Positions 1,998 to 29,592 of a stretch of 29,592 nucleotides of DNA are shown here, in pieces (positions within the stretch are counted from its first letter, which is position 1; each line of letters begins with the position of its first letter). A model generated the notes under the pieces. That model was not told where the DNA came from and did no database searches. It saw only the letters and a list, made by a program, of their open reading frames with translations. The DNA is taken from positions 54,199 to 83,790 of the forward strand of contig NW_020312027.1 in assembly GCF_003144115.1 (NCBI RefSeq). The letters run 5' to 3'. The position numbers and the translations under genes are program-made. This stretch comes from Tilletiopsis washingtonensis (lineage: Eukaryota > Basidiomycota > Exobasidiomycetes > Entylomatales).

Positions 1998-4588
1998 ATG
2001 GCCGCGCCCGTCTCGCCCACCACACAGGCGCCAGATGTCGTGCGCGATTTCGCACACGAGGAGGCGGCGCCCGTTGCGCCCTCCTCCTCCAAGGGCACCT
2101 CCACAGACGTCTCCTCCTCCTCAACGCCCCTCTCGCCCTCGCCCTCGCACTCGCGCTCCGCCCTGCTGCCTTCGTTCCTGCACAAGCCGGCGCCGCCCAC
2201 GCCGCACTGGTCCTCGCTCGAGGATCTCAACGACCCCGATCCCTCGCGCGCCTTTGCCGCCGACCGCAAGGCGCGCCGCAGGTCGCACCCCAACGCCGCC
2301 CTCGCCGCCGTGCACGCCCTGCCCACCGTCATCTTCCCCCTGCAGGGCGCCGGCGCCGGCTCCGAGTTTGCACAGCAGGCGCCCCTCTGGTCGCGCTACC
2401 CTTACAAGGCGCTCTACTATGCCTACTTTGGCCTCACCGTCGGCCTCCTCTTTCTCCCCTACTTTGCCCTCGCCTCGCTGCTGCCCGCCATGCGCGGGCG
2501 CCGCCGCTGGAGCTGGAAGAAGGCCACGCTGATCCGCCTCTACCGCCACTCGACACGCCTCACGTACCGCTCCCACACGTCCTTCACGCGCGACCTCAGC
2601 CAGGAGGTGCCGCACTCGCAGACGTTCAACTCCAAGTTCACCTGGGTGCCCGCGCTGCCCGCCGCGCTGCTGCGCGGCGAGATCCGGCGCGCCATGGCGG
2701 CGCAGGGCGTGAGCAACGAGCGCACCTGCGGCTTCTGGTTCGGCGCGCGCGACGACGGCGGCGCCGTGGGCCAGCCGGCGGCAAAGGGCGAAAGGGTCGT
2801 GCTGCATCTGCACGGCGGCGCCTACTGGATCGGCTCGGCTCACGAGAAGGACGTCTCGGCGGCCGTGTCGCTGCAGCTGCTGCACAAGCTCGAGGCGCGC
2901 CGCCGCCGCCGCGCCGGGCGCGACGCCGATGCCGCCACACCCGGCGTCGAGCTCGACGCCTCGCCGCTGGGCTCCACGCTGCCCGTCGTCGGGCCCGGCT
3001 ACTGCCGCCGCTCCTTCTCCCTCGACTATCGCGTCTGCATTCCCGGCCATCCGGAGCGCGGCAGCTTTCCCGCCGCCCTCATGGATGCCGTGGCGGGCTA
3101 TCATTACCTGGTCAAGGGCTGCGGCTTCGAGGAGGACAATGTCGTCGTCGTGGGAGACTCGGCGGGCGGCAACTTGGCACTGGCGCTGTGCAGATACTTG
3201 AGGGATGAAGATGTGGGCTTGAAAGTGCCTGGCAGGTGAGTTGGCACAACGAGGGAGGCGACGCGGGCGAGTAGGTGCAAGGGGCCAAGGGGAATGCTGG
3301 AGGGCGAACAAGGGCAAGGACGGCGACGACGTTGGATGCGCGGGGCAGCGCGAGACGAGCTCGATCTCGGCGTTGCGAACGCAGTTTCAATGCGCCGAGA
3401 CAGGAAGAGAGAAGGCGAGAGTGGGAAGCGCCCGGGGGGGGGGGGGGGGGGGGGGGGAAAGGCAAAGGCAGGCATTTCACGACGAGCTTGTGCTGCGAGG
3501 GGTCAAACGGAGGAGAACGGGAAGCGCAGCCCTGTCGAGACGCGTGTGGCGTTGGAGACTGCCCCTCGGACGGACGGGCTTGGCGATCCGCACACGAACG
3601 GGGGAGGGGGGGAAAAGCAGTTCAGGGCATGGAAAGCGCGATGAGGGGCGGCAGATAGGGGGGGGGGGTATTCCGTGACGGAGAGGAAGGTCGCGGGCTT
3701 GCTCGACGCGTCTTGCCTCTCGCGGTAAAGAGGAGGCGGACGCCATTCCTCGGGCTGCAGTTTCTTGCGCTCCTGCGTGGCTCCAGCCTGCGCCTCGTCA
3801 TTCATACTGACTCTTCCGCCCCTCAGCATGCTCCTCCTCTCGCCGTGGGCCGACACTTCGCGTTCGCACTCTGGGCCTCTCAATGCGCTCAACCACTTTT
3901 CGTCGGTGTACCAGAACCGCGCCGTCGACATTATCCCTCCCGGCTCGGGCTTCCGCAACACGGCCGTGTCTGCTCTGCTCGGTGTGCTGCCGGCGAGCGA
4001 GACGTACCGCAATCCGTACCTCAGCTCCTGCTCGCTGCACCTCGACGTCGAGGCGCCCAGCTGGGGCTACGAGGGCTTTCCGAGGCGCATCTACATTACC
4101 ACGGGCGACGGCGAAGTGTCGTACGACCAGCACCTGACGCTGGCGCATCGCCTTGCGGCGGGCACGCGGCGCACGCGGCCCATCTACGTCGGCGACCGCC
4201 TCTCTGCCGACGCCGACGCGCAGGCGCTGGCGGCAAGAGCCAACTATCCGCGGCCGCGCCGCAGCTCCATCCCCGGACCCGTGCTGCCGCGCCATGCGCC
4301 CAAGCACGAGCAGGTCAGAGCTCCGCCGGGCGCACAGCAAGTGGAGGGCGAGGCGGTGACGGACGGCAAGCGAGAGGAGGGCGCAGGTGGAGAGGAGCGA
4401 GAAGTGTGGCTGGACGAGTGCCGGGACGCGGTGCATGACTATTTGCTCTGTGAGTCACGCAGGAGGAGCATGGTTGAAGCTGAGACTGACGACGACGACG
4501 ACGACGACGACGTGCAGTTGGATGGTGGGGACGGGAGCGAGACGTCGGCTGGGAGCGCATCTCGGCGTGGATCGAGGCGGACGAGTAG
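1998..4588 (+). CDS. Membrane-anchored alpha/beta hydrolase (steryl acetyl hydrolase/HSL type)
   Basis: Three exons: 1998-3235, 3827-4449 and 4518-4588, giving 643 residues. A Ser/Pro-rich tail (1-60) precedes a membrane segment at about 138-164, then an alpha/beta-hydrolase-3 domain. The oxyanion motif HGGAYW is at 272-277, the nucleophile elbow GDSAG at 386-390 (Ser388), the candidate Asp near 513 in GEVSYD, and the candidate His616 in AVHDYLL. A Lys/Arg-rich, low-complexity insert at about 300-325 splits the core. Saccharomyces Say1-type relatives deacetylate sterols in the ER; the substrate here is inferred. The start is ATG in CCACCATGG. Intron 1 (591 nt) is far longer than others in the window. 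Intron 2 (68 nt) holds a GAC repeat, and splicing it restores the usual family ending, GWERISAWIEADE. Reading through it instead gives an unrelated tail ending at 4616. Confidence 0.88.
3434..3457. repeat. Homopolymer of 24 G
   Basis: Twenty-four uninterrupted G on the plus strand inside the first intron of the alpha/beta hydrolase, so the pre-mRNA would carry the G version. Confidence 0.9.
3658..3668. repeat. Homopolymer of 11 G
   Basis: Eleven G on the plus strand, in the same intron as the 24-G run and about 200 nt downstream of it. A G-rich stretch at about 3600-3612 lies between the two. Confidence 0.85.
4488..4511 (+). repeat. (GAC)8 microsatellite in an intron
   Basis: Eight exact GAC units lie in intron 2 of the alpha/beta hydrolase (4450-4517). 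If the intron were retained, the repeat would be translated as eight consecutive Asp. Confidence 0.85.
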
Positions 4589-7471: not shown

Positions 7472-8174
7472 CCGAGAAGGAGTCTGGTTCCCGCGGGCGA
7501 GCGGCGCGGCGAGCGTGAGATTCAGCCCCGCCCCCGCAGCATGCAGGTCCACGAGCTAGTCCAACACGCCAAACACGAAATTGCTGCCTGACGCCTCTGC
7601 GTGCCCTATGATCGACGTGTGGCTTGCCCGCCGCGCCGTGCCGTCCAGCTCACCGCACATCCGCTGCGCTGTGCGCTGCCCTTCTCATCGCTGAGATTGT
7701 GAAAGCAAGCGCTCTTGGGCGAGGCTGGGCCGCTGGCGCCGCTGACGGCTTGGCGCGCCCGCCCACGTGCGCGGCGCACGCTGTCGCGCATGCCGCGCCC
7801 CGCCGGCTCCGCTCCAGCTAGCGCAGACCCGAGCTTTTGGGACCGACGGACGTACCCCGATTTTGCAGCTGCGTGACCCAGCGCGCACGGACTCGGAGCG
7901 CTGGAGCCCAGCATGCGGGCGATCGACCAGGCACCTAGGCCAGCGCAATCGCCGGCAAAGGATGCGATCGCTGCGTTCTTGAGAGCTCGGCTGTGGACCA
8001 AGCCAGGCCCGCAGGGCGAAGCGCCGCTTTCGCGCGTGCCGCTTGGCGTGACTTTATCCGCCGCTCTCGCCCCGCCCCAGATGCGCTGCCGCGCCCCGCT
8101 GCTGTCCAGAGCGGGACAGCCAGCGCAAGGCATCTGTGCATCCCACCACCACGCCTCTCTATCCCTTGACTCGT

Positions 8175-9482
8175 ATGGACTTCCTCATCGCATCACTCGT
8201 CGCTCTCAACGGCTTTCTCCTTCTCATTCTCTCGGTGCGCCCTCTGCGCGACATTCTCTCCCACCTCCGCGCCTTTCTCTCCGTCCTCCGCATCTGTGTG
8301 CGCGGACTGCCGGCGGTTCCGCCCGCCGCAGTCCGCCCGCGTCCTGCTCCACCCGCGACGGAGCCACCTCCTTCCGCTCCACCCGCCGCAGTCCGCCCGG
8401 CGCCGCACAAGTCCGACCTCGCTACGCTCTGCGTCCTGGCGTACGGCGCCCCTCACGTCGCTCAGCTCGGCTTCATCATCGGGCCGTGGACACTGGTGGA
8501 CATCTACGACGAGGGCGCCATCTGGCTGTGGGCTCATCGCGACAAGCCTGCGTACGCCATCGTCCAGCGCGGCACGACCACTCTCGCGGATGCGGGTGCA
8601 TGCGGTGAGCTGATGCGCGCCTCGCTCCACGGCTCCGTCGCCGGATGGACCGAGTGTGCCGTCTCCAGAGCCCTTCGCGTCGCCGAGATTCTCGCGCACC
8701 ATGGCATTGATCCGTCGACGCACCACATCACGTGTGCGGGCCACTCGCTGGGCGCATCCTACTCCGAGTTCCTGCTGCACCACCTTCGAAGCCAGGGGGG
8801 CGGCAGCGGCCCGCTTCACGATGCCATCACCTTCGACTCGCCGGGCCTACCGGTGGCGTTTCGCCGTCAGGAGCGCGTGCCCGACATGCTCATCGGCCTC
8901 ACTACCATCATGGCTTCCGCGAGCTTCATCAACACGCTGAACACGCCGCTCGCCGAGACTCTCTACACCAGCGGACGCGGCAGCAGCATCTTGCTGGAGG
9001 ACGTAGTGCGTGTCGGCTGGTCGCTCATCTCCGAAGGGCCCGAAGCCGCTTTCGCTCTTTGCTACCAACGCACGCCGTCGCTCGAGAAGCATCGCATGCG
9101 ATCGATCCTCCAGACTGTGAAGGCAGGACACTTCATGCGATCGAGCCGCGAGCTGTGGGCGCGCAACACATGGTCTCCACACGTCGCACGGTCTGCCACG
9201 GCTGTGGCCTCGGCCTCGTCTCGCATCCGCGCGACGACAGGCCGTGCTCTCTACTCGCTCTCATCGACCTTCGCTCGACCGACGGGCCCCGCCCCAGAGT
9301 CGGACGTGCGCGAGCCGGACGGTGATCTGCCAGCGGCATTCCTGCCGCCGTCGAGTCTTGCCCAGCACTTGAAGCGCCATCAGCAGATCTACGTCGAAGT
9401 CGGTGCTTGCCTGGTCGGCGTGGCGTGGGCCGACCCCGTTGAGCTCGGCACGACCATCCTTCTCGCGCGTGGCCAGCTCTGA
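8175..9482 (+). CDS. Lipase-like alpha/beta hydrolase with N-terminal anchor
   Basis: A single-exon gene of 435 residues. A hydrophobic N-terminus (about residues 3-23) looks like a signal anchor or signal peptide. It is followed by a Pro/Ala/Arg-rich linker (about 46-78) containing an in-frame duplication, and then the hydrolase core. The lipase elbow GHSLG is at 189-193 (Ser191) in the context ITCAGHSLGASYSEFLLHHL, followed by DAITFDSPGLP (about 216-226), an arrangement seen in class 3 lipases and DUF2974-like proteins. I cannot assign the catalytic His with confidence. The C-terminal third is Ser/Ala/Arg-rich and matches no domain I recognise. I chose the ATG at 8175 because it starts directly at the hydrophobic segment. 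The likely reaction is ester hydrolysis of a lipid, by inference from the fold. About 1.6 kb of empty sequence lies upstream and 1.5 kb downstream. Confidence 0.75.
   Translation: MDFLIASLVALNGFLLLILSVRPLRDILSHLRAFLSVLRICVRGLPAVPPAAVRPRPAPPATEPPPSAPPAAVRPAPHKSDLATLCVLAYGAPHVAQLGFIIGPWTLVDIYDEGAIWLWAHRDKPAYAIVQRGTTTLADAGACGELMRASLHGSVAGWTECAVSRALRVAEILAHHGIDPSTHHITCAGHSLGASYSEFLLHHLRSQGGGSGPLHDAITFDSPGLPVAFRRQERVPDMLIGLTTIMASASFINTLNTPLAETLYTSGRGSSILLEDVVRVGWSLISEGPEAAFALCYQRTPSLEKHRMRSILQTVKAGHFMRSSRELWARNTWSPHVARSATAVASASSRIRATTGRALYSLSSTFARPTGPAPESDVREPDGDLPAAFLPPSSLAQHLKRHQQIYVEVGACLVGVAWADPVELGTTILLARGQL
8319..8399 (+). repeat. In-frame 60-nt-period duplication in the lipase-like gene
   Basis: The 18-nt block CCCGCCGCAGTCCGCCCG occurs at 8322-8339 and again at 8382-8399, exactly 60 nt (20 codons) apart. 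It encodes PPAAVRP twice in the proline-rich linker. Upstream of copy 1, 8302-8316 is nearly complementary to 8324-8337, so the mRNA could form a stable hairpin there. Confidence 0.75.
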
Positions 9483-10997: not shown

Positions 10998-12789
10998 CTA
11001 GTTCTGACGGCTCGAGTCGGCGACGTAGGTGCGCCGCTCCGTGGCGTTCATGGCCGCCCACGAATCCCACCACATGGCCACCGTATCGTTGCCCGTCATG
11101 TAGCGCGTCTCGTTGAGCGGCACGTCGAGGCGCGCGCCGGCGATCTCGGGTGCCGGCACGCGCACCGCGCCCGCGACGGCGCGGCTGATGTTGTTGGCCG
11201 GGTACACGGCGTTCAGCAGCGCATCCCATCCCGTCTCTGCGGTGCGAGCAGTGTCAGCGGCAGGCCAGGCGTGATTAATCAGCATGGGTGTAACGCACTG
11301 TCGGCGCTCTGTGGGAGCGGAGCGTACGCGTCAGCGGTGCTCTCTGCGCAGCGTTTCTCGCAACTCACCATCAGGTGGCAGGCAAAGTCTCCCGGGTACC
11401 AGATCTTCGTCTTGAACTGGTGGTTCGGCTGGAACGTGCCGAACATGTCCGCATTGAACCAATGCGGCGGCACGATGGCGATGCTGTCGGTAAGCTCGTT
11501 GTTGGAGCCCGCCATGCCCAGCGCCGTCTGCTCGCCGTTCCACCACGAGTGCTGCGGCTCGTAGATCGGAGCGGCGATGATCGTCGAGAGGATCCTGCAG
11601 CACGGGTCAGCGCGGCATGCGTGACGCCCGTCTGCTGCCAGACTCACTTGATGCTCTGCGGCGCAACGCGCACGAGCAGCACGCCGGCGTTGATGGGGCC
11701 CCACTGGTCACGCGCCATGAGGAACGATTGCGTCCGGCCGAACTCGGTGTCGGGCGGCAGGAACATCTCGAGAGGAACGTTGGGGTTCGTCACGACAAAG
11801 TCGGCGTCCGAGTACCTGGAGCCGCACCAGTCAGCGCATGCGTGAGCCCGAGGAACACAGGCCACGCACAAAATCCACTCGAGGCGGTCCGCCTTGGGCT
11901 TGCGGAGCTCGTCGGTGACAAGGGAGAGGAGGGCAGCGGGCTTCGACCACACTGAGGGAGGCGAGAGTCGTCAGCACGCTGCTATCCTGCCGCGAGGCTG
12001 CAAAACGCACTGCCGGTCTGTCCGCCGCCTTGCGGGCCGCGGAGCACCTCCTCGCGCACGAGCCAGAATGGGTAACCCCATCGACGTGCATAGTTCTGCA
12101 TCAGGTCGATGGAGAGGTCGTAGGGGTTGTAGGGCACGGTGATGTTGATGGCCTTGCCGTCAGCGTCCAGCGCCACCGGCGGCGGCGGCAGTGGGTCGCT
12201 GTGACGCGAGCCGCTGCCGAACTTGAGCGTGACGTAGCCAATCTTGGCGCCGCGCTTGCGCACGATGACCTGGTCGAGCGAGTCGGGCAGCACCGGCGGC
12301 TCCACCTCGGGCACGGGTGGCGGCGACGCCGAGAAGACGCCGTGCTTGAGGTTGCTGAGGATGACGGACGTCGTCTCGGCCTGCCAGATGCACGTGAGGC
12401 CGACGCCGAGCAAGACGTATAGCAAGGGCACGAGATACCGCCGCGGGTTCTGCAGGCCGTGGTGTCAGTCGAGGGGCTGCGGAGCGGCGGCGAGAGCGAG
12501 GAGGGCCAGCCAGGCCTGCGCCGGCGAAGCAGGGCAGCGCTCTCTTGCCCGCGCCACGACACCCGTCACAGCGGCACTGCCTGGCCTGCGACAACGCCTG
12601 ATCCATCGCAGCCGCACTGCCGGACCTGCCGCACACCTGTCCACCACTCACCTTTGTCACGGGCGCGCAGCGGGTGCGGCGGACGCGGCGCGAGGGCTCG
12701 GGGCTGCGCGGCACATCGGCGCGCGCGCCGTAGAGCGGCAGCATGAGCGGCTCGCTCTGCTCGTCGTCCTTTTCGTACTGGGAGACCAT
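10998..12789 (-). CDS. GT34 glycosyltransferase (GMA12/MNN10 family, type II membrane)
   Basis: Seven exons in transcript order: 12652-12789, 12011-12449, 11870-11951, 11648-11815, 11369-11594, 11299-11308 and 10998-11236, giving 433 residues. A cytoplasmic tail of about 50 residues precedes a membrane anchor at about 51-68 (LVPLLYVLLGVGLTCIW) and a proline-rich stem, the layout of a Golgi type II transferase. The catalytic region shows MWSKPAALL and EWIL-YSDADF, with the DxD metal/nucleotide-sugar motif at 223-225. It continues with INAGVLLVR and WYPGDFACHL (about 341-350), in family order. GT34 members include yeast alpha-1,2-galactosyl- and alpha-1,6-mannosyltransferases; sequence alone does not say which this is. 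Introns are 53-62 nt except the first (202 nt). Exon 6 is only 10 nt, but both flanking introns have good donors, CTGAC branch motifs and acceptors, and the frame is kept. Its divergent neighbour is a UDP-galactose-type transporter, which favours galactose. Confidence 0.87.
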
Positions 12790-14947
12790 GGTGCGCGCAG
12801 GCCGCGGAAGCAGTGGGAGAGGGGAACGGCTAGGGGGGTGGTGGAGCAGAGGAGAGAGGCGCAACGGCACGCCGGGTGCTGAGTGCAGCAGCCGCCGGCA
12901 GCAGCGAGGGCGGCCGCGAGTTTATCGCCAAGGAGGCGAGCGCCTCGCCTCGGCGTTCCTGCGCGCGCGGCAGCTGCTCCGCGGGTGTCGGCGGTTGAGT
13001 GCAGCTTCAAGTCAGAGTGCCGGGCAGATTTCAGTGATGAGTGGCGCGGAAAGTGAATTGCGCGACGGCTGCACGCCGCGAGCCACGCGGTCTCGGAGGC
13101 AGCGCAGGCGCGCACTGTGCAGGCACAGCGCTCGTGCCCGCCTTGGCGCTGCGCCGCCGCCGCCCGGCCGCCGTACCGCCGCTTGCTGAGATCCAGGATG
13201 CGCGGCGTGCGGCGTAGCGTGCTCGGGCGTTCTGCAGAAGGCACGGGAGCGGGCACCAGCGCAGTCTCAGCTGCACCATGCAGCATGCCGCCGCCGCACT
13301 CGCCCGCCCGCGCCCGTCAGCTGCAGCCGCAGGCGCAAAAGGAAGGTGCGCTGCGGCTCCATCGCCTCCGCCGCCGCTGAGCGGCTGCCGTCGACCCGAA
13401 AGGCCGGAGCGACGGCATGCCTGCGGCTGCGACGCGCGCCCCCTGGCAGCGCTGAAGAAGGAGCGCCGCCTCCTGCAGCTCCGCAACGCGCAGAGACGCG
13501 AGAGAAGCACACCGCTGCCGCAGCCGCAGCCTGGTCGTTCTGCGTGCTGTGTGGATTAGTGAGCAGCTTGCTTCAGCGCAGGTCGGTACTGGCGCTCCTC
13601 GTGCAGCCCTTTTGCCGCCAGCACCAGAGATGCTCTGCATGCTGTGCTTCGCGGCGCCGCAGCTGGCGCAGCATCCGCGGCCGGCAGCCGGGCGTGCCTG
13701 TGCCGTCTGCCGCTGAGGCGAGATCTGGCAAATTCCGTACCTTAGCGCCGCCGCCACACGCACCCCTGCTGCCCCCGCCGCCGCGTCTCGCGTCTGTGCT
13801 GGCGCCGCGACCTTCATCTTCCCGCCGCGCCCCTGCACCCTGCGTCGCTGCTGGCGCTGCCTCCCCAAGCGAAAGAGGGCGAGACGGCGACGGCAGACAC
13901 ACCCGCCGCTGCGATGCCGACGGGTGCGACGGACAGCGCAGGCACTCTATCCGCGCCCTCACAGCAGAGCATCTGTCTGCTGCTTGCGAGCCGTCGCAGC
14001 AACAGGCAGCGACGGCCATGCAGGCGGCAGGCGAGTCAAAGCGCTTCTCATGATCCACGCGTGTCGCACGCGCCTCTCGGGTGCATCTCTCCGCCCAGCG
14101 CGCAGCCCCGTGCTGCAGACGTGGGCAATGAACCGCTGCGCAGCAGCCTGCAGCAGAGCTTGGACCAAGCACCGGCTGCGCTCAGACGCGGGCGGGACAG
14201 ACGCTAGAGTGCAATCGAATGCAGGATGCAACACTTAGCCTCTTGCTTGCAGCCCCCAGACGCAGCAGCAGCGCAGCACGGCAGCACGGCACAGACACGA
14301 ACGCCGCGCCGCCAGAGAAGCTCGCCGCGTCGCTTTGCCGCACAGACGCGAGACGGCCAGACGGCCGCGCTGCGGCGCTGCCTCACCAGGCGCCTGCCGC
14401 TCTGCCGGCGGACCGGCGGCCTGTCAGAGATGAGGAAAGCTGCCTGACACTCTACTGCTGAGTGCGCGCCGTCGGTGTGGCATCGCCTGTGAGGGCGGCA
14501 AGGCGGCGGCACCCGGCATCGGCGCCCGACGCGCACCAAAAGACACCCACAAGCCAGCCCCGCGCCGCGCCGCCGGGCGGCGGCACGCTGCTGCCGCGCC
14601 GCGCGCGCGGCCTCGTCCGCATCGCGGCGTGCTCGCGTCCGACCGCCCTGCCGCACCTCGCCCGGGTGCCGCTGCTTGCCACCCACCACCACCGGCGCTC
14701 GCCGCTCCACATCTCTGCGCCTCTCTCTCTCCTCGTCCGAACACTCCTCCACGCTCTCTCGTTCTCTCCTCTCACGCATCGCTCGCTCGGATCACCCCGC
14801 CTCGGCCGCCGCGCTGCTGCCGCGCCGCATTCGCTCCTCCTCGCCTCGCTCCTCCGCTGTGCGCTCCGTGGCTGGCCGCGGGCAGCGCCTCTCCCGCCTT
14901 TCGGCCGCCGGCCGCACCTTCACACCCCACCGCCGCACCTGCCCGCC
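12790..14947. promoter_or_regulatory. Long divergent intergenic region, 2.2 kb
   Basis: It lies between the starts of the GT34 gene (minus) and the nucleotide-sugar transporter (plus), so it holds both promoters and 5' leaders. It is very GC-rich, and many long open frames result from composition alone; I recognise no protein in them. The frame of the transporter stays open upstream of its ATG back to about 14462, but that translation is low-complexity Arg/Ala/Pro and does not look coding. A pyrimidine-rich tract near 14707-14776 is listed separately. Confidence 0.5.
14707..14776 (+). promoter_or_regulatory. Pyrimidine-rich tract upstream of the transporter gene
   Basis: A C/T-rich stretch with CTCTCTCTCT runs about 170-240 nt upstream of the ATG. 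Such tracts commonly precede transcription start sites in filamentous fungi and yeasts. Assigning it to the core promoter is inference. Confidence 0.35.
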
Positions 14948-16260
14948 ATGTCGTCCAACGCCGTCAAACTTGGCGCCCTCGGCCTGCTCACCGTGCAGAA
15001 CAGCGCGCTGAGCCTCGTCATGGCGCGCAGCCGCGTGCCCGATGCCGACGGCCACATCTACCTCGGCCCCACGGCCGTCTTCCTCGTCGAGCTGCTCAAG
15101 GTGCTCATCTCGCTCAGCGCGCTCTTCTACACGCGCCTGCACGCCGCTGCCGCTGCGGCCACGCCCGCCGGCGGCGACTGGTTGCCGCTGGCGCCCTCGG
15201 CCGCTGATGCAGACGCCGATGAAGTGCAAGGCGAAGGCAAGCGCACCGGCCTGTGGGAGGTGAATACGTGGCGCACCGCCGCCGCCGAGGTGGCCGCGAC
15301 GGTGTTCGAGCGCAGTGGCCTACGCTTGGCTATCCCTGCGCTGCTCTACGTCTGCCAGAACAACCTGCAGCTCGTCGCCGCCTCGCACATGGGTGAGTAG
15401 AGCGGCGCCGCATGGCGGTCGCGTTGCTCACGTCCGCTCCAGACGGCGCACTGCTGCAGACCTTCTCGCAGGGCAAGCTGATCAGCACAGCCCTCTTCGC
15501 CACGCTCATGCTGCACAAGAAGCTCTCGCGCTGGCAGTGGACGAGCGTGGCGGCGCTGGGCCTGGGCGTCATTCTGGTGCAGCAGGGCTCGCCCCACGGC
15601 CCCGCATCTGCGCCGCCGCCGCCAGGCTCGCCGCCGCCGGGCTTCGCGCTCTCGGGCGCGGCGACGGGCCTCATTGCCATCACCACGGCCTGCGTCATCT
15701 CGGGCTTTGCCGGCGTGTACACCGAGATGATCCTCAAGGGCCAGGCCGAGTTCTGGGCCGTCAACGCACAGCTCTCCGCCTTCAGTCTCGTGCCCGCGCT
15801 CATCCCGCTGCTCACCAACGCCATGGATGCGCAGGGGCACTGGGCGCCCATGCGCTACTTTGGCGCCTGGGCGTGGGCGAGCGTGCTGCTCAACGTCTCC
15901 GGCGGCCTGCTCGTCTCGCTCGTCGTCAAGGTGGCCGACAATGTGGCCAAGGGCTTCGCCGTGGCGCTCGCAATTGTCCTCACCTTTCTCTTCTCGGCCG
16001 TCTTTCTCTCGTACAGCATCACGCTGGCGTGCGCGGCGGGCGTCGCCGTCGTCGTGCTCAGCATGGTCGTGTACAGCACGAATCCGCCGCCAAAGCCTGC
16101 GCAGTCCGAGACGGTCTTTGATGCGCGTGAGACGGACGCGCACGACACCGAGTACGAGTCGGCAGACCAGTCGATGGACGAGCGCAGCGACTCGCCGCCG
16201 CACACTGCGATCCGCCTGCCGACCCATGTGATCTCAGAAGAGGAGGACAAGCTCGGCTAG
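14948..16260 (+). CDS. UDP-galactose/nucleotide-sugar transporter (SLC35A type)
   Basis: Two exons, 14948-15392 and 15443-16260, joined across a 50-nt intron (GTGAGT donor, CCAG acceptor), give 420 residues. It is a multi-pass membrane protein of the nucleotide-sugar transporter family that exchanges a nucleotide sugar for the nucleoside monophosphate across the Golgi membrane. Family signatures in order are KLGALGLLTVQNSALSL at the start, VFLVELLKVLISL, YVCQNNLQLVAASHMD, then QGKLISTALFATLMLHKKLS. Further on come AVNAQLSAFSLVP and GGLLVSLVVKVADNVAKGFA, the last being the most diagnostic block. Its resemblance to the Schizosaccharomyces Gms1 UDP-galactose type is the basis for the substrate. 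The C-terminal 65 or so residues form an acidic, Ser-rich tail likely to face the cytosol. A Gly/Pro-rich loop (PPPPGSPPPG) is an odd insertion between membrane segments. It sits between two glycosyltransferase genes. Confidence 0.9.
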
Positions 16261-16848
16261 TCCGCCGTCCCGTTCGCGTCACCCTTGTATCAGCCCCTAG
16301 CATTTCTCCCATAGATTCACCGTCGGAAGCAGCCGACCACTCTGCGATTGCATCATCCCTGTCTCGCCGCTCTCGCCTTCTGCTTCTTTCCACATGTACG
16401 ATTCGCGGGACCGTCACCATCGGAAAGTCTTACAGTTTCTGCGCCTTGGGCTGCTGGCCACAGCCAACGAGCGTGAGACGGCTGCGGCGAACGATCCCGC
16501 GAGGTGCAGAAAGGAATGGCCGCTGTCATAGATTTGTGCAGCTGGAGGACTGAGCATCTAGCCGTCGTGCATCGAAGGGGGCTGTCTGTGGCCGCAATCA
16601 GCCTGCCTGTAGCGCTGCGTTCCCACGGCACCGAGACGAGCGCGCAGTAAGAGTGCGCATGCTGCGCGTTCCGATCGCCTCGACGACGGGGAGAGAAGTG
16701 CAATTGCCCGTCATGTTGCCCAGTGTAGCGAGGAGCTTTTGGCTGCAGAATCATCCTTTGATCTCAATGGAGCATCTGTAGCAGCTGTGGCCTCTCATGG
16801 CGCCGCTATGGTACTCACTACCCTGGTCCCTCTTGAGGGGCGCGGTGT
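16261..16848. other. Intergenic region between transporter and GT25 genes
   Basis: Some 590 nt separate two genes on the same strand, so this holds the transporter's 3' end and the GT25 promoter and leader. I see no gene. Two ATGs near the right end (16797 and 16808) lie in the other two frames relative to the chosen GT25 start. Confidence 0.5.
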
Positions 16849-18192
16849 ATGCCCCCCCCCCCCCCCCCCCCCCGCTCGTGCCCGCCCTGCTTCGGCCGCT
16901 GCCGCGTGCTGCTCTACTCGCTGCTGCTCTGCACGTTTGGCTATGCCGCCTGGGCTGCGTGGCGCGTGCGCGGCACCGTCGGCGAGCGCATGGTGGCTAC
17001 CCGTGTGCGCATGCAGCCCAGCTCGCTGCATCTGCCGCCACCGACGCGCGAGACGCTGCCGCAAGTGTACAGCGGCGACACCACGACGCTGCTGCCGCTC
17101 AACGAGACGCTCGGCTTCGAGTGAGTGGAGTGAGGGCTATGCCCTGCAGCACCTGGTCTCATGCCTCTGCCAGGGCCATCTTTGCGGTCAACATGCCCAC
17201 GCGGCCCGACAAGCGCGACGAGCTCTACCTGCTCGCACACACGGCCGGGCTCAAGATCGACGTGCGCGACGGCGTCGACGGCAAGACGATCAAGCATCAG
17301 CAGGCGCCCGACATGATCGGCCACCTGGGCGCCCTGCGCGGCCATGCCAATGTGCTGCGCGAGATTGTCGACCGCAAGCTCACGTCGGCGCTCGTGATCG
17401 AGGACGACGCGGACTGGGACGTCGACCTCCGCGTGGCGCTGCAGCGCCTCATGGGCCCGCTCGCCACGCTCAGGCAGTCGCTGCACCCCGACGCCAGGAT
17501 CACGCGGCCCTCGGCGTGGGCGCCGTGGGGTGAGAACGACTTTGACGTGCTGTGGTTCGGTGCGTCGGCGCGATGATGTGGCGCTGCTGCGCCAGGGCTG
17601 ACCTGGCCTGCAGGGCACACGCACGAGGCCTCGTGGAACGAGGCCGGCGGACCGCGCCCCTACGTGACGTACGAGGACGACACGATGGCCGACTTTGAGA
17701 AGACGGAGCCGCAGAACCGCTGGGTCTACAATGACTACCGCATCGCGCTGCCCAAGCAGGAGCACAGCGAAGAGCTGGCGCCGCCGCGCCGCATCATTCA
17801 GAAGGGTCGCCACCCGATGGGCTCGCAGGCCTACGTGCTGACGCTGCGAGGCGCCATGAAGATGCTCTACCACATCAACCACGTGCCCTTGTGAGTGTAC
17901 CTGCGTGGCGAATTGCCTGCCGCTGCTGACGTGCACCGCCAGCCGGCCCTTTGACGAGCAACTCAAGTACATGCTCGAGACCGACGTGCTTGACAGCTAC
18001 TGCGTTGTGCCGGCACTCTTCTCCATGTACCTCGCGCCGTGGGAGTCCACCGACAGCGACGTCTCTGTCGCGCAGGGCGTAGACAAGCCGCGCATTCTCA
18101 CAGGCAGCGACGGCTTCGCGTGGGACATTCGGAAGAGCAGCCGCGCCTCGCTCGAGGACCGCCTTGGCGCCACTGTGCCCAAACGGCCGTAG
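16849..18192 (+). CDS. GT25-family glycosyltransferase (Golgi, type II)
   Basis: Four exons, 16849-17120, 17174-17559, 17614-17890 and 17943-18192, with introns of 53, 54 and 52 nt, give 394 residues. A short N-terminus precedes a membrane anchor at about 19-38, as in Golgi type II enzymes. The GT25 domain follows: AIFAVNMPTRPDKRDEL (from 92), the DGVDGKTI loop, LGALRGHANVLREI (about 142-155) and the acidic SALVIEDDADW (about 162-172), which carries the DxD-like motif. After these come DVLWFGH, a conserved GSQAYVLTLRGAMKML block and the closing FRPFDEQL region. GT25 includes bacterial LPS and collagen beta-galactosyltransferases, so UDP-galactose is the expected donor, by inference. The chosen ATG stands directly before 22 C, read as seven Pro, so the N-terminus depends on the exact run length. 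Met48 is an alternative start that would lose the anchor. Confidence 0.85.
16852..16873 (+). repeat. Homopolymer of 22 C at the GT25 start
   Basis: Twenty-two uninterrupted C immediately follow the ATG at 16849. As assembled, the run is coding and gives a poly-proline N-terminus. A change of one or two bases would move the downstream frame onto a different upstream ATG. Confidence 0.9.
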
Positions 18193-20521: not shown

Positions 20522-23500
20522 GCTGGGTGTTGGGTGAGGGGGTGATGAGGAGGGAAGGATGGCGAGGGGAGCCCGATGCCGGGCCTCATCACCGAGCTCC
20601 ACTTTGGCTGCGCGCCCGTGCACCTTTCAACGCCGGCGCCGTGCGCAGCACGGCGAATTTCAGATCGGCACCGCCGCGCGGCGGCACCGGAGCCGTCGAT
20701 CCGCCAGCTGCGCATGCGACGCAGAGGGGCCTGCGCCGCCTCACCAGCGCCGACATGCTTGCCGCACGGCCGTGGACGCGTGGCATCGAGCACTATGCCT
20801 CTCGCCATGTCACTGCACCCCGGGCCTGAGGAAGGTGATGCGATACCTCAACGGGAGCGCAGCACCGGCACGGGGCCGGGTGCATGTGGAGCGTCTCGAG
20901 GCGCTGGGATCAGGGCGACGTGCTGACTCAGCATTCTCACGCGCCCTTGGCACGCTCTTCGGCGCCCAGCAGCCCAAGCCGGCGCTAGGCAACCTCGCTG
21001 CTGCTTTGTTTTGGGCTCATATTGTGCAAAATACTTAGGCCTCGAGCCTGCCAGCGATGCTGCAGCCGCTCAGGCTTGGTAGGCGCAAGGAACAGGTGCA
21101 GGCGGGCGTGGCGAGCCAAAGTCGCGTCTTCGCATGCTGGCACGCAAGGACGCGAGGGCGTTACCCCAAATTGGGCCGCCTGCATGTCAACACGCCCCGC
21201 AGTTCTCGCTCCACCACCCACAGCAAGGAGCAGCCGCAGGCTGACTACGCAAGGTCAGCGACACGGTCCGTCCGCTGCGGTGCGTTGGCCGCCCACAACA
21301 CGGCTTGCGCCAACATGGCCTCGGCGCAGCAAGCCCGATGGCCGTCGCGGTCCGCGCTGCGTCGCCGACAACACGGCGTCTGCCAGCGCCACAGCGCCCG
21401 GGTCTCTTTCTTCCCGCCCATCAAGCCCCCGCTCTCTCCCTGGACGTCAGGATCACTCAGTCGCGGCTCATAGCAGCTCAGCTCATACATGCACCGCCAG
21501 CTGCACCTGCCGCGCGGCTCAGCCGGCCCCTCGCAGCGTCGGCAGCAGCCCAGCCGGCTGCGCAGCGCAGCGCGATCTGCTCAGAGCTGAGGTACGCCTT
21601 TTTCGCCTCGCGAAAGCGCCTACATCGCTCTGCTGACGCTGAGTCGCAGCTGCTGTCCTGGCTCGAGCTTGACGTCGTCGCCAGCCGCCAGCGCGGTTCG
21701 CCAGTCGCGCTCAGGTCACGCACTGCGCATCGGGTGATGAGCTGAGTTGTCTCACCGCTGCTCACGCCTCTCTCTCGCCGCCACCGTGCATCGAAGCATT
21801 GGTCATGATCGGAAGCTGCAGGATCTGGCCGGTCGATGCGCTTGCATGCGCCACAATCCTCGCGATCGAGCTCGTTCATCGCTCGCCTGGCGCCCGGATG
21901 GCCGAACGGCTGCAGGCATCCTTCGAGGGAAATGCGCCCGTGCGAGAGCGGGCTACGGTCGTCGAGCAGAGAGTTGGTGGGCATGGCGCTGGATAGCAAA
22001 GAGGTCCTGTCCGTCATGAGTCGGCGTGGCGCGTCAGGCTCCTCGTTCTCACCTCGTGTGTCGCTGCTCGCGCTCGGCGTGCCCGGCCGCTCGGTGTCAC
22101 TCTCGCGCAGGCCAGCTCTCGCTCGACTGCATCCAGACAGTGCACTTCGCCGAAGCAGCGGCTGCTCGTCGTCGATCTCGCCAGAGTCCCTGTCGCGCCT
22201 CGCTACGCCGCGGCTTCGGCGACGAGCATGCTCGGTCACCACCGACGCCTCGACTAGCTTCGCCGGGCTCATCGTTCAACGCACGTGCCATTCGATTCCG
22301 CGCTCTCGCGATCGCCACGCCGAGGACGCGCCTCGTCGCCAAGGTCGAGTGAGTCGCGTTCGAGGTGCTCTCGCCAGCGTCCAGCGTCGTGCAGTCAGCC
22401 AAGCTCTTCGTCACCCTCCGTGGCACCTCACCCGTCCTCCGCTCTACCTTAGCGTGCCTTGTGCTCCCTGACCGCCCGCTCACCTGCCGTTGATGGCGGA
22501 CATCACACATGCCTTCCGTGTCTTCACCTACTGTCTTTCTAGCGCGTCACCCGGCCGCGAGTGAGGGCAACATCGACCTCGCGATGCGCGCGAGATGCTG
22601 ATCAGACAGCATGGCATGCTCCGCGCCTCACTGCTCCCCCTCATCACAGCCCACCGTGTTACCTAGCACATCCGCCACTGCCGGCGGTGCCTCGACGAGC
22701 TTGACGCTTCGGCTGTCACACACAACCGCCGAGCGCTACTCCAGGCCTGCCCGGGTCTATGCACTGACCGTTTGTCGCCTCCACGGCCCACACTCACCGC
22801 TGTCAATGCATGCATGCCAGAGCCCTGTTGTGTGCCCCATCGCGTCCCTTGGTGCCGAAAGGGCGCGCAAGCTCCGCCTCTTGCCCGGATGGTGTGACGC
22901 AAGGCCGTTTGCGCTCGACGATGCAACGGCATCGCTTCTATCCCGCGTGACACAACGAGCTCCGCGCAGCGTCCAGTCGTCATGGCCGGACAAGAGAGCT
23001 GAGACAGCACCCTTCCCGGTGTGTCGGGCCGCAAGTCGTCGCTTACGCTGATGATGCAGCAGATCGGGCACAGGCGCTGGATAGGTTCTACATTGTCGTG
23101 GGACCGTTGCATTGCCTCTATCGCTCTTCATCCGTGCCGCAGACGCTCGCATTACTCGCTTGTGTGCACAGCTTTGCCGCATCACCGCTGGCTCTGGAGA
23201 CGTTCGACCGCACTGGACAGACGGCAAGCCCCGCACTGTCTGGAGGGCAATGTCGAGCTCTTCCATTCGCCTTGTGCAGCTGTTCAACCGTGAACGCTCC
23301 AGGTGTCGGCGGCAGCGCTGCGCGGGCTCACCGCATCCCTGCTAAGCCTGCTAAGGTTCTGTGTCGCGGGCACGTCGACGCGGCGGCCCCGTTTTCGCGC
23401 AGTAAATCGATGCGCCTCGGACGGCCGCGCCGCGCGGCGTCCATGAATGATTTCTGCGCCGGCAACGAGTTGTCCGGCTGCGCGCGCCATTCAGCAGGCA

Positions 23501-24841
23501 TGCAGCACAATCGGTGCCTTACTGCACACCCTAGTGCGCTTGTCGAGACTGTCGCGGCGGACAAGTCTTTCCTCAACACATCGTGCGGCTTCAAGGTACG
23601 GACCGCGCCAGGTACGAAGCCTGCGCCAGCCACTCAGAGTGCAGGGCAGTAGCTGTACAGGCCGCTGCGACAGGTCCTGCACCTGTCGGCGCGCCGATAA
23701 GGATCAGCGCGCCGAGCTGACCGCAGAGTGCTGGGCAAAGGTCCCCAGGCAAAGCGTTGCCTCCTGGCAGCTCCAACGCCTCGAACAGGGGCTGTGAGTG
23801 ACGGAGCTATGGACACCAGGCCTCGCAGGCTTCGGTGAGAATGGACTGTCTAGGCGATGCGCGCTGCGGCTGGCACTTCTTGCTGCCAACGCATGCGGTC
23901 ACGCTGCTCTGCGAGCTGTGGGTCGGGCGGAGCGCGCTCAGCTTCGTGCAGGGCAGCTGTGGTACATTGCGATGTGCTGTCTACCCGGCTCTTCCTTGCC
24001 GTGAGGCACGCCGACCGCGACGACCTGCTACACTAGCTTCAGGAGAGTGTTGATGCGTAAAGCGAGCGCAGGCTGCAGCTTGAGCAAGCCGGACAGCAGA
24101 GGTGTTGTGCTGTAGCGGCTGGCGGACAGCTGCGGCGCGGCTCGCGGAACGCGTCTGCGCGCGGCGAGGGCGCAGAAGCAGGCGCCGCAGCGGCGCGCAG
24201 CGGCATACCCGTGACGCGCCGCGCGCGGCGGGCTGCCTGACCTCCACATCACCCCCCATCGCAATGTCAGAGCGTCGCTTCACCTCGCTCCATCACCTGT
24301 CCGCTCATTGGCGGTGCGCTGCAGTGGAGCAACGCCGGCGCCGTGGCGCGGTGACGCGCGCGGCGGTCTGCTGCCTCAGGTCGGCCGCAGGTGCAGCAGA
24401 CCCTGCGCCGAAGAGCGGCCGGAAGGTCAGGCGTAGGCTGCCGTCCGCCACGACAGGGGCGGGGTGAGGCATGGAGCTCAAGAGGAAGTGAGTAGCGCAG
24501 CCTAAGCAGCGCGGCAAAGAGCGCAGGACGCTGTGCAGCCGATTGTCGCGCCGAGGAGCGAGCTGCCAGCAGAGTGCGGGTCTCGCGAAGCTGGCAGCGA
24601 GCGGGAGAGGAGTAGGAGTGAGCGCCGAAGGAGGGGCGTGGGAAGACTAGACAGAGGCCACGCGCAGAGGCTCGAGGGGTGGCGACGGCGGCGGCGGTGA
24701 CTGTGCGTGCGGCGTGCGACGGGACCGTGGCGCGGCCAGGCTACGGGAAGAACAGCAAAGAGGGATGGGCGCGGGTGATGCTGCGAAGGCTAGTCAGCTT
24801 GCTCGGCCGCTGCGAGCACTACAGACACGGGCAGCGGGGAA
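20522..24841. other. Gene-poor region, left part
   Basis: I recognise no gene on either strand. Open frames of up to about 260 codons occur, but their third-position composition is weaker than in the real genes and no domain or splice-joined model emerges. The first few hundred bases must contain the promoter of the SDR gene. A strongly CpG-rich stretch lies at about 24100-24480. No transposon protein, long terminal repeat or tandem array was seen. Confidence 0.45.

Positions 24842-24887
<46 letters not shown>
24842..24887. repeat. Homopolymer of 46 G
   Basis: Forty-six uninterrupted G on the plus strand, the second longest G/C run in the window. It lies within the gene-poor right end, about 360 nt beyond a CpG-rich stretch. 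Confidence 0.9.
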
Positions 24888-24888
<1 letters not shown>

Positions 24889-26543
24889 GCGGCGCTGTGC
24901 TGTGACGAGGTGATGGTGGAGGAGAGCTAAGGAGAAGCGCCGGTCGCAGCAGTGGCAGCAGCAGCCCAGTGCGGGGGCCGCGCCAACAACGGCAGCGCGG
25001 CGTCGTGTTTGGAGGGCACACACAGCGGCAGCGCACTGCCAAATACGCGCGGACCAGAGCGGCAGCCGCAGGACGGCGACGTTGACATGGCTGGTGGTCC
25101 GAATGAGGCAGGTCTATTGCAGCCGTGCACGGGCCGCGCTCGTTCGGTGCCGCGTCGCTCGGAACGACGGCCGCGCGAGGCGCACCTGCACGAAGCGGCT
25201 GGTCCTCTGGCCGCGACACATTCAAGAACCCTTCAATCCGGCGGCTGCAATGGCTCCACGCTTGTGCGGCTGAGTGTCTGCGTGACGTCTTGCGCGCAGC
25301 AATGCGCAGACGCGTCGTCGCGTGGACGGGGCCGGACTCGCCCGCGCTTCATGGACGACGAAGTGTGCGACGGTCGGCTGCGGCAAGCAAGAGCCTGCTC
25401 CCAGGGGCTTCCCTCGATGCGCTGTCTCTCGTTCCGTTGCGAGAGCGCTGCGTGCAGCGACCGCTCAGGAACGGCCAGCGCATGTGGGCAGCGCACAGCA
25501 AGAGTTGCAGCGAGGCTTACTGCGCCCGGAACTTGACGCTTCGCATCACAGCGGCGTCGCTGTGCAGAATGAAGGACTTGTGAGGCCGACGCTCCCTGCT
25601 CTGGAGGCGACCGTGCCGCTCTGCCAGGTCGACGCGGTGCTGCTCGAGAAGCGAATGCCGGCGTCGGATTTCGTCGAGCGCATGGACTGGCAGCGCTTGC
25701 AGTGCTCTCCCTGCTCTGCATTGGCACCGATGGCGCATGAATCCGCAGCCAATTTGCCTCAATTGCGCTGCTGGGCGTGTGGTCTTGCAACCGCGCCGCC
25801 TTGTGTGCGCCTTCTCGCTGAAGGCCGCGTGCGATGGGTCTCGACACCGGCTGCAAGCTGCGCCATTCGCCTCTTCGCTCATCGCCTCTGCGCTCTTGTC
25901 GCGACGTCGCCAAGCCTGCTCGCAGCAGCAGCGCCTCATCCCCGCGTGGAAGCGCAGCACTTCTAGCGTCGTGTTGACTAAGCAACGACGGAGCGGCACA
26001 CAACACCCACGTCAAGCAGATTGCTTCGGATCACTCGCTAGCGGCGTCGGTGCGCGCGATTGCAGCAAGCCCAGCCCAGCTGCTCTCCTCTCTCTGGCGG
26101 GCTATCGTCGCACTGCTGCGAGCCCACGTGGAGCGGACCGCTCGCCCTCTGCGAGTCCCGCGAACGGGCAACTGACGGGCGCACAAGGCAACGACGACGT
26201 TCGAACCTGCAAGCCGTGCAGGTGGGCGCACGAGGCGGGTCGTCTCGCAATGAAATGAGGCCGAGTCTGCTTCGCGCCGATGAGCAGTGAGACGCGGCCG
26301 GTCACAGTGCCAGCCCGGCATGACTACTTGCCTAGCGAGGGTGGCGAAGTCTGTCCGACATATGCAGAGGCTTCACGCGGCTCTCGCAGGAGCTGAGGGC
26401 GGGGAGGGGCAGCTTCAGGAAGCAAAGCGAGATCACGGGCACATAGATAGGCTTTCGCGGTGGTGCCTCGCACCGGGTCCGTCAAAGAGCGACTGAGGCG
26501 CCCGGAGCCGGCAGAGAGTGGCGCGGGGTGCGAGACTTGTTGA

Positions 26544-26553
26544 GGGGGGGGGG
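26544..26553. repeat. Homopolymer of 10 G
   Basis: Ten G on the plus strand, the shortest of the G/C runs noted in this window. Confidence 0.75.
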
Positions 26554-27126
26554 AAGGTCTGGTCGCCACAGCAGATGAGTGCGCCGCGCGCCGTCCATGG
26601 CGGAGAGTGTCGGACAATTCAGCTGCGTGCGACGCTACTTGGGGTGTCGCATCTGTCGGCGGCCAATGGAGACCATTGGGGTTTGTCGACGTCTGCCGTC
26701 AGGAAGGCCCGTGAGAGGAATGCGTTGCCATGGTCCACACAAAGTAGCGCTACGCAATGAGCGGTGGGCAGGGTACATCGAAGAGCGCACAGAACGTGGC
26801 GAAGACGGAAACGTCGAGCTCACTTGGCAAGGCGAGTGCGCAGGGCCTACAATGCCAGCGGTGCACGCGGCGCTCTCTACGGCAACTGCGACCGGGCGCG
26901 AGCAGACAAGCGAACAGCTCGCTGTACCAACACTCACCAGAGTGCTGGCGAGACTGGCGAGGACAGAGAAAGCGGGTGAGAGAGGAGAGGGGGGCGCAAG
27001 GCGGGTTCCAGGTGCGTCGCGAAAGCAGCCAGACTGCAGCCGCGGCCTCCAGGGCGGCCTTGTCTTGTCACTTGCGCTCTCAGGTCGTACCGTACCATGC
27101 ATATTTCTGCGGACTGGAACGGTAAT

Positions 27127-27148
27127 ACAGGTCCTCTACAGGTCCTCT
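27127..27148 (+). repeat. 11-bp tandem duplication
   Basis: The sequence ACAGGTCCTCT occurs twice without a spacer, at 27127-27137 and 27138-27148. It is probably a simple slippage duplication. Confidence 0.7.
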
Positions 27149-29592
27149 CGCAAGCCGGCCTGTTGCTTGCACCCGAAGCGATCTCTTCGTCACAGGTACA
27201 CGCGAACCGGGCGTGCAGAGACGCGCCGCGCACGGCATTCAGGGCCACACTTCTATCAGCTGAGCTTGTGTGCGGGAATGTCGAGCCCAGAATCTAGCTA
27301 AGACAGCCCAGGTCCCGATTTTGCTATCAAAAGTACCGCCACGCAAGACCCGTGGGCCTGGCAGCAGGTCGGTGACTCGGCGGAGCGGCTGGCCTCGCGC
27401 TGCTGCACCTGCGCTCCCACCACCGCGCGCCGATGCGCTGCGCGTCCCCACCGCAGCGCGCACCGCCATCGCGTCGTCTGTCAATCTTCAGCCAAACGCT
27501 CTGCCGGCATCCGGGCCGTCGAGGTACGACACTAAGCAGCTTCAATCTCGATCCAAAATGAGGCAAGATTCGAAATGCATTTACTGGCAGCTGGAGGGAG
27601 GCTCATGCATGACGCGCAGGGGCGGGCATAGGCCGCCAAGAGTGCAAGCCGCGCGCGTGCTCACGGCAAGGTGCGCAACGCAGCACAGGCAGCGCCAGCA
27701 CCTGGACGCGCCAGGAAGCTTGCGCCGCTGCGGCAGGAGTAGCGAAGCAGCGTCAAGTGGAGTACCACGGAGTCCGCAGCAGATTGCAGCAAGGCGGGCT
27801 GCCGTCCTCCGGTAGCTTGCCTCCACGATAACGTGCGCGACACGCGTGACATGGCAAGATGAGTATGCCATGGGAGTGCGGCATGTCATTTGTCTGTTGA
27901 GCGGGCACAGCTGTACGGCGGCTCCTGCCAGCAAGTAGTACGCTCCGTGCATAATGAGACGGGCTGGCGGGGATAGCAGTCTGCGGGCGCAGGGCAGTCG
28001 CAAGCAATGACGAGTCAGTGCACAGAAGGTGCGTTCAGCGGCGGCGGAGCACTGGCCGCGCTCGCAGCACAAAAACGAGCCACAAACATGCTCAGAGGGC
28101 ACATTGTGCGGCTCGTGACACAGCAGCAAGCCCCCTCGCTCTCAAAAGATCGCGCACAGCAGCAGCGACAGCCAGACGCCGCCAGCCACGGGCAACACCA
28201 GCGGACCAGTCAAGAGAAAAGGCGCAAGAGACGGCGCATCGGCGAGACAGCGAGCGTGAGCGTCGTGGTATCAAGAGCCCAGCCTCACGTGAGCGAGGGG
28301 ACCCTGCTCGCAGTTTCGGTTGGTAGCGCACGGCTGGGAGCGGCGGAGGTCACTGCCTGGTCACAGAGCCGCAGAGCCGCCGTTCCCGCGCAACACGCTG
28401 TGTGTGTGATGCACGGCGGCAGAGAAGCAGCGCCTGAGGTGAGTAACCAGGCCGCAACATGATAACGAAGCCTCGCTGCGTCTTGCTCGCCGTCTCAATC
28501 CGCTTGCGGAGCGAGAAGCGCTCACTTGCCGCCTGAGACGAAGAAAGCACGCCGCCGCAGCATCACCTGCCTTTGTCAGCGCTTGGACCCGCTGCGTGCG
28601 CCTTGCGCATCTTGTAGCGCTCGTGGCGCCTGCCTCGCGGCTCGATCGTACGCGAGCGACGCTGCTCGCCCGCTGGCAGATCAACCCTGGCCCGCTGCTT
28701 GTCAAGGCTGTTGTGTCGCTGTGCACCAGAAGCGACGGGCCGCAGAAAGGGCGGGTTGTATTCATTGCAGCAACAGCGTCTGAGCAGTCATCCAACATTG
28801 AGGCAGCTAGTGCTTGTACCGCCCTCGTCTCCTCCGCTCACCATGTTTGCTTTTGGCTTGCCGCAACAGATGTATGGCGAGGCGCCAACCCACTCCCTAC
28901 GCGGCCTGTGGTGAGCTGTCTGGCAGCAGAAGACGCCGCGGTCGCTGGCGAGAGCTCAGAAGGCGGGTGCGCTTGTGAGCGCTTGCGCCATACACAACGC
29001 GCAGCGAGGCCTCAAATGCCTTGCACATGCACACCGCTCCCCGTCGAAGCGCCTGCGTCCGCAACAACAGGCAGCATAGGCGATGCGTGTTGCTGCTCAG
29101 CGCCGCACATTGCGCACGCATGATGCTTGATGCAGAGGTCCCAGCCCGACAAGAGCTCGCGAGCGGCCCTGGCTGCAGGCCGCGGTGTCGCAAAGCGCAG
29201 CCGCAGCATTGTCAGCGACACGCTCACCAATGAGAGTTGTCTCGAGTCGCTGCCAAGTCCCCCCTTCTTTCCCCCTTTTCCTCTGCCTTCTCCTCTTGCG
29301 TCAACAACCTGCCGCACTCCGGCCGCCCTGGCTAGCTCTTTCTTCCTCTTGTGCAGCGGTTTTCAGGCGTAAGCCAGGAGAAAGGTCGTAACGTCCGTCG
29401 GGGAGGCGTCTCCCAAGATTGCTCTTGCTTGCGCCCAGCGAGCACGGGCAAGGTCGCGGGCACCAATGACCCGACAACACGCGGTGCACAGGCAGAGCGG
29501 CGAAGAGCAGGGCATGCTGGGCTTGCCGCTCTCTCGGCAGACGCCAGTTCATTGTTGCTTGCCATGCGCGGGAGCGCAAGGGACTGGGGAGA

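Follow-up and report, generated by a model that had tools for sequence, protein, structure and literature searches.

In Schizosaccharomyces pombe, the GT34 Golgi enzymes of the Gma12/Gmh group are supplied by the UDP-galactose transporter Gms1, and UDP-galactose is likewise the donor of the animal members of family GT25. As described in the accessible parts of PMC12892413, GT34 includes galactosyl-, xylosyl- and mannosyltransferases: its S. pombe members are described with a DxD motif and include galactosyltransferases, the mannosyl enzyme Gmh5 carries DxT and has an active site nearly identical to that of Mnn10, and the plant xylosyltransferases, among them XXT1, also fall within the family. 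In the accessible text of PMC5883313 and PMC13028003, fungal GT25 genes appear as annotations and not as characterised enzymes. In the former, a bagasse transcriptome study, the Aspergillus fumigatus GT25 gene Afu8g00650 shares a CAZyme table with the GT32 transferase gene Afu8g00640; the latter lists, for the yeast Phaffia rhodozyma, a GT25 gene that is lower in an sre1 mutant.

Linkage of genes for sugar-nucleotide supply or polysaccharide synthesis is of a known kind in fungi. In Aspergillus, ugmA and ugtA form a linkage that is conserved in Pezizomycotina (PMC4630932), the galactosaminogalactan (GAG) cluster comprises five genes (PMC4817252), and further gene clusters are known from basidiomycetes (PMC10218983), as far as the accessible parts of these papers report. 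The view, taken in an earlier sequence-only reading of the locus studied here, that genes of glycan assembly are rarely clustered in fungi was thus too strong. This locus resembles the Aspergillus examples as a fungal linkage of this sort, yet it differs in its enzymes (a UDP-Galp mutase and the five GAG genes there) and in that conservation or co-regulation has been published for those clusters, whereas the present trio is known from one genome. The Afu8g00650/Afu8g00640 pair, with its consecutive locus numbers, is also comparable, although the partner there is a GT32 enzyme, no transporter is named in the accessible text and the neighbourhood is deduced from the locus numbers (PMC5883313). 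No unit composed of GT34, a transporter and GT25 is described in the titles and abstract openings searched, a literature drawn mostly from outside subscription journals.

The window, i.e., the whole stretch of DNA that was analysed, spans 29,592 nucleotides (C30:54199-83790; GC content 66.8%) of the 18.7 Mb, 32-contig genome of Tilletiopsis washingtonensis. Using gene models spliced by hand from GT..AG junctions, we found three intact genes that adjoin one another, encoding a GT34-family glycosyltransferase, an SLC35A-type nucleotide-sugar transporter and a GT25-family glycosyltransferase, with outer limits at exactly 10998 and 18192 (Table 1). The splice models and family matches thereby confirm that the three genes are consecutive, as had been proposed. 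The least certain junction of the GT34 model is its last acceptor (GCAGAG, at the 11234/11235 boundary), which was picked for frame. GT34 and the transporter are transcribed away from each other, and the divergent promoter proposed for the two is putative, being deduced from gene orientation; the largest stop-to-stop ORF lying wholly inside the gap between them (13190-14053) gave no Pfam match at E 0.01.

Table 1. Features of the trio in the window and of the second transporter locus on contig C15. Window positions are given for all but the last line.
Feature	Coordinates	Strand	Details
GT34-family glycosyltransferase	10998..12789	-	6 exons, 429 aa; ATG 12789, stop 10998
GT34 exons	12652-12789, 12011-12449, 11870-11951, 11648-11815, 11369-11594, 10998-11234	-	splice model
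GT34-transporter intergenic region	12790..14947	divergent	2158 bp between start codons
SLC35A-type (PF04142) nucleotide-sugar transporter	14948..16260	+	2 exons (14948-15392, 15443-16260); 420 aa
GT25-family glycosyltransferase	16849..18192	+	4 exons, 394 aa; splice model
GT25 exons	16849-17120, 17174-17559, 17614-17890, 17943-18192	+	splice model
C22 homopolymer	16852..16873	+	directly after GT25 start codon; reads M-Pro-run
C15 locus (transporter, Stealth_CR2, GALT)	L023 4084-8746 and L057 2944-3969		Pfam

The transporter matched PF04142 (Nuc_sug_transp; E 1.6e-64, 218.5 bits, above the cut-off of 27) and the NCBIfam SLC35 model TIGR00803 (E 9.2e-36, 123.6 bits, above the cut-off of 55.85), a model to which neither GT34 nor GT25 gave a match at E 0.01. 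In the PDB it matched CMP-sialic acid transporters (6oh2, E 3.8e-29; 6i1r, E 3.8e-21). To characterize its pocket, we took the residues of SLC35A1 and SLC35A2 that the accessible part of PMC8411240, which concerns three pockets, describes as setting UDP-galactose apart from CMP-sialic acid, and mapped them via an alignment with mouse SLC35A1. The transporter carries the same residue as SLC35A2 at ten of these 13 positions (E48, K51, Q137, N138, Q141, K160, T164, S235, N256 and K318), and Q141 occupies the position of SLC35A2 Q129, proposed in the same source to hold the beta-phosphate. The remaining three positions differ: L142, S260 and N299 replace Y130, G239 and Q278 of SLC35A2, respectively, and since S260 also corresponds to Y214 of SLC35A1, the CMP-type tyrosine is absent. 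The protein is likely a UDP-sugar carrier, judging by these residues. Compared with SLC35A1, SLC35A2 and SLC35A3, it shares the Pfam and NCBIfam family and ten of the 13 SLC35A2 pocket residues, but departs from them in the three substitutions, in a diverged K160 helix and in a long acidic C-terminal tail.

The pocket does not, however, name the sugar. In the model of PMC8411240, as far as its accessible text goes, the SLC35A1/A2 pocket recognises mainly the nucleotide rather than the sugar, and the genome contains a second clear SLC35A-type gene, on contig C15 (PF04142, 102.6 bits), whose product is identical to the window transporter at 145 of 339 aligned positions (43%) and keeps the same ten pocket residues. 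Of the shared galactose donor that had been proposed for the trio, the UDP-type pocket therefore supports the nucleotide, while galactose itself is not singled out. The K160 helix of the window transporter reads GALLQTFSQGKL, which departs from both PATFQILAQLK of the C15 paralog and AAVYQVTYQLK of mouse SLC35A1. This divergence might point to another cargo or to another kind of coupling, so the cargo of the window transporter may differ from that of its paralog.

As to the transferases, GT34 matched PF05637 (Glyco_transf_34; E 7.5e-8, 32.8 bits, above the cut-off of 23). It contains a single hydrophobic segment (residues 52-70, Kyte-Doolittle (KD) mean 1.86, against a threshold of 1.6), preceded by a basic N-terminus, and a D-A-D motif at residues 223-225 (D223-A-D225); its sequence thus combines a single N-terminal membrane segment with a DxD motif, as in the type II GT34 enzymes Gma12, Gmh1-3 and Gmh6 of S. 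pombe (PMC12892413, accessible part). The arrangement differs from that of S. pombe in having a GT25 partner, of which there is none there. No relevant PDB chain matched GT34, and XXT1, considered as a structural anchor, gave no phmmer match at E up to 10; two complement-receptor matches (E ~0.06) were taken as chance. Protein searches of the T. washingtonensis genome found no GT34 paralog.

This gene could alternatively encode an alpha-1,6-mannosyltransferase of the Mnn10/Mnn11 type, which would use GDP-mannose, a donor unrelated to the transporter. Mnn10 and Mnn11 do belong to PF05637 (PMC5225481, accessible part), yet no homologs of either were found in the Basidiomycota sampled in that source, and the D-A-D found here stands against the DxT of Gmh5, the enzyme whose active site is close to that of Mnn10 (PMC12892413, accessible part). 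We consider a mannosyltransferase unlikely.

GT25 scored below the cut-off against PF01755 (Glyco_transf_25; E 2.8e-4, 21.3 bits, cut-off 24) and matched procollagen galactosyltransferase 1 (COLGALT1) in the PDB over the core of the glycosyltransferase domain (E 1e-9); having missed the Pfam cut-off, it is filed as GT25-like by its relation to COLGALT1. The two proteins share the GT25 core and an E-D-D motif, here at residues 167-169. They differ in architecture: the part of COLGALT1 that matches lies in the C-terminal half of chains of 520-653 residues, whereas the present protein is a 394-residue type II protein. Its single N-terminal segment (residues 20-38) has a KD mean of 1.55, under the threshold, and so the type II anchors that had been read into both transferases are clear for GT34 and weaker for GT25. 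The 5' end of the gene calls for caution: the ATGs at 16797, 16808 and 16849, located before or abutting the C22 tract, each fall in a different frame, and no stop interrupts any of the three frames across the tract, so either the frame of entry into GT25 hinges on a tract prone to slippage or the length of the tract is an assembly error. Tracts of this kind are common in the genome, where runs of 20 cytosines matched 604 times on the forward and 633 times on the reverse strand, overlaps included; the window holds, besides C22, very long homopolymers at 755-849 (C95), 3434-3457 (G24) and 24842-24887 (G46). Two weak GT25 matches elsewhere in the genome (E 0.07 and 0.7) lay, by eye, opposite TPR-like and P450-like frames and were dropped. 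Profile searches of the genome with PF05637 and PF01755 returned no matches and missed even the window's own genes, because introns split the domains, and are therefore uninformative about copy number.

Which sugar the trio would use was approached through the genome's supply of nucleotide sugars. Frames resembling galE occur on contigs C7 and C3, the best exon reaching 141.5 bits against a cut-off of 262.3. Together with a GALT-like gene on C15, they suggest that UDP-galactose can probably be made. An NDP-sugar dehydrogenase frame on C16 scored over the cut-off (223.7 bits) and one on C14 below it, so UDP-GlcA is probably available and UDP-Xyl perhaps. Among the individual candidate donors we judge galactose the likeliest, because animal GT25 enzymes use UDP-galactose and the S. 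pombe GT34 enzymes are galactosyltransferases (the latter from the accessible part of PMC12892413); UDP-Xyl, UDP-Glc or UDP-GlcNAc may instead serve one or both enzymes. A variant in which the genes form a real unit for another sugar (e.g., UDP-xylose, UDP-glucose or UDP-GlcNAc), the C15 paralog being the actual UDP-galactose transporter, draws on the diverged K160 helix, on the position of the GALT gene near the paralog and not near the window transporter, on the plant xylosyltransferases within GT34 (PMC12892413, accessible part) and on the possible supply of UDP-Xyl from UDP-GlcA indicated by the dehydrogenase frames. The nearest solved relative of GT25, however, is a galactosyltransferase, and a use of xylose would be hypothetical; overall we find another sugar rather doubtful.

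To assess whether the trio reflects linkage or chance, we surveyed the neighbours of seven of the eight transporter-like places in the genome (the window, C15, C12, C14, C11, C20 and C5), leaving out a weak place on C4 (24.3 bits, below the cut-off). Since the search works exon by exon, the number of members found for each family is a minimum. At the five loci other than the window and C15, 34 ORFs were listed and 20 put to Pfam, five of them the transporters themselves; nine of the 15 scanned neighbours matched a family (septin, NUDIX, tubulin, PHD, aminotransferase, histone deacetylase, GST, CPDase and chorismate-binding), six matched none, and at none of the five loci was a transferase recognised among the scanned ORFs. 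On the right side of the C12 transporter, where no gene was recognised, the ORFs were listed but lay outside the Pfam scan. The C5 place is a marginal PF04142 match, with 28.5 bits (cut-off 27) and one in-frame stop, and 22.5 bits, below the cut-off, on rescan.

The C15 locus presented a different picture. Ten ORFs from three stretches were scanned there, excluding the small ones at L023 6-466, which lie upstream of the transporter. On one side, the next recognised neighbour is a convergent Stealth_CR2 gene ~1.7 kb away (55.5 bits, cut-off 39.4), with an apparent N-terminal membrane anchor; Stealth proteins are sugar-phosphate transferases. The GALT/GAL7-like gene, whose two domains scored 152.5 and 121.5 bits, lies ~8 kb from the transporter, with another candidate gene (L057 1328-2665) in between. 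Both clear PF04142 genes, the window's included, thus have a recognised transferase neighbour (two of three if C5 is counted), against none of the rest, a tally that is suggestive but based on small numbers. The transporter-Stealth_CR2 neighbourhood is a new observation made here, and mildly favours real linkage over chance.

Assuming 6900 genes and 50-100 glycan transferases per genome, any one transporter would be flanked by two transferases with a probability of 5e-5 to 2e-4, and under the same gene-count assumptions 0.0004-0.0015 such cases are expected among seven transporters; as the case was selected for its pattern, this two-flank figure overstates linkage. The gene number follows that of U. 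maydis, 6902 (PMC10218983, accessible part).

Contig C30 begins with (CCCTAA)n telomere repeats (L032 1-100), which places the trio 65-72 kb from them, and ends at the right end of the window. Ten ORFs of the window were put to Pfam. Upstream lie a PhzF-like gene, an alpha/beta hydrolase, an amidohydrolase-like frame below the cut-off (25.1 bits, cut-off 29.7) and an ORF (8052-9482) that is without a Pfam match and, by eye, lipase-like; downstream lies a short-chain dehydrogenase. In the right-hand ~9 kb (20600-29592), the scan covered one ORF (21511-22275, minus strand), which had no Pfam match. No glycan-related gene was recognised among these flanks. Farther out on the contig, where 15,664 letters left of the window lay outside the analysed sequence, GH31 glycoside hydrolase fragments were observed at C30 30720-33461 (L029 6221-8962), ~21-23 kb before the window begins; the second fragment scored below its Pfam cut-off.

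The three genes may therefore be ordinary Golgi glycosylation genes of different pathways that happen to be adjacent in T. washingtonensis. Such a coincidence would fit the unrelated recognised flanks, the lack of recognised transferase neighbours at the five other loci and the fact that the case was picked from a scan after the fact. It sits less well with the very low two-flank expectation for seven transporters, and with a one-sided transferase neighbour at one of the six other loci (C15), against an expectation of 1.4-2.9% per locus. Weighing these points, we hold chance adjacency to be a real possibility that falls short of even odds.

Taken together, the three families, their intact reading frames and adjacent positions, the layout of the anchors, the acidic motifs of catalysis and the UDP-type pocket, all read from the predicted genes, are consistent with a small Golgi glycosylation unit combining UDP-sugar supply with two transferases, to which we assign a probability of roughly 0.5. 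The odds of this reading and of its alternatives overlap; a unit for another sugar would itself be one form of a real unit. Here, we infer a Golgi location, an antiport mechanism, a common donor and a joint function: the transporter would carry a UDP-sugar into the Golgi lumen and UMP out of it, and the lumen-facing type II GT34 and GT25, encoded on either side of it, would take UDP-sugars as donors to lengthen glycans on mannan or on glycoproteins that are secreted or belong to the cell wall.

A broader proposal is that the SLC35A genes of this lineage have been kept beside the luminal transferases that they feed, GT34 and GT25 in the window and the Stealth-domain transferase with the GALT gene on C15, the trio being a self-contained cassette of supply and two transferases whose cargo has changed, as the diverged K160 helix would suggest. 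We regard this as distinctly unlikely, and set it a little lower because the marginal PF04142 place on C5 is without such a neighbour. The sugar of fungal Golgi transporters is hard to assign from sequence. If the proposal is true, a neighbouring gene would be a direct clue to the cargo of each SLC35A carrier, and a conserved SLC35A-transferase neighbourhood would yield testable donor assignments and point to the acceptor of GT25.
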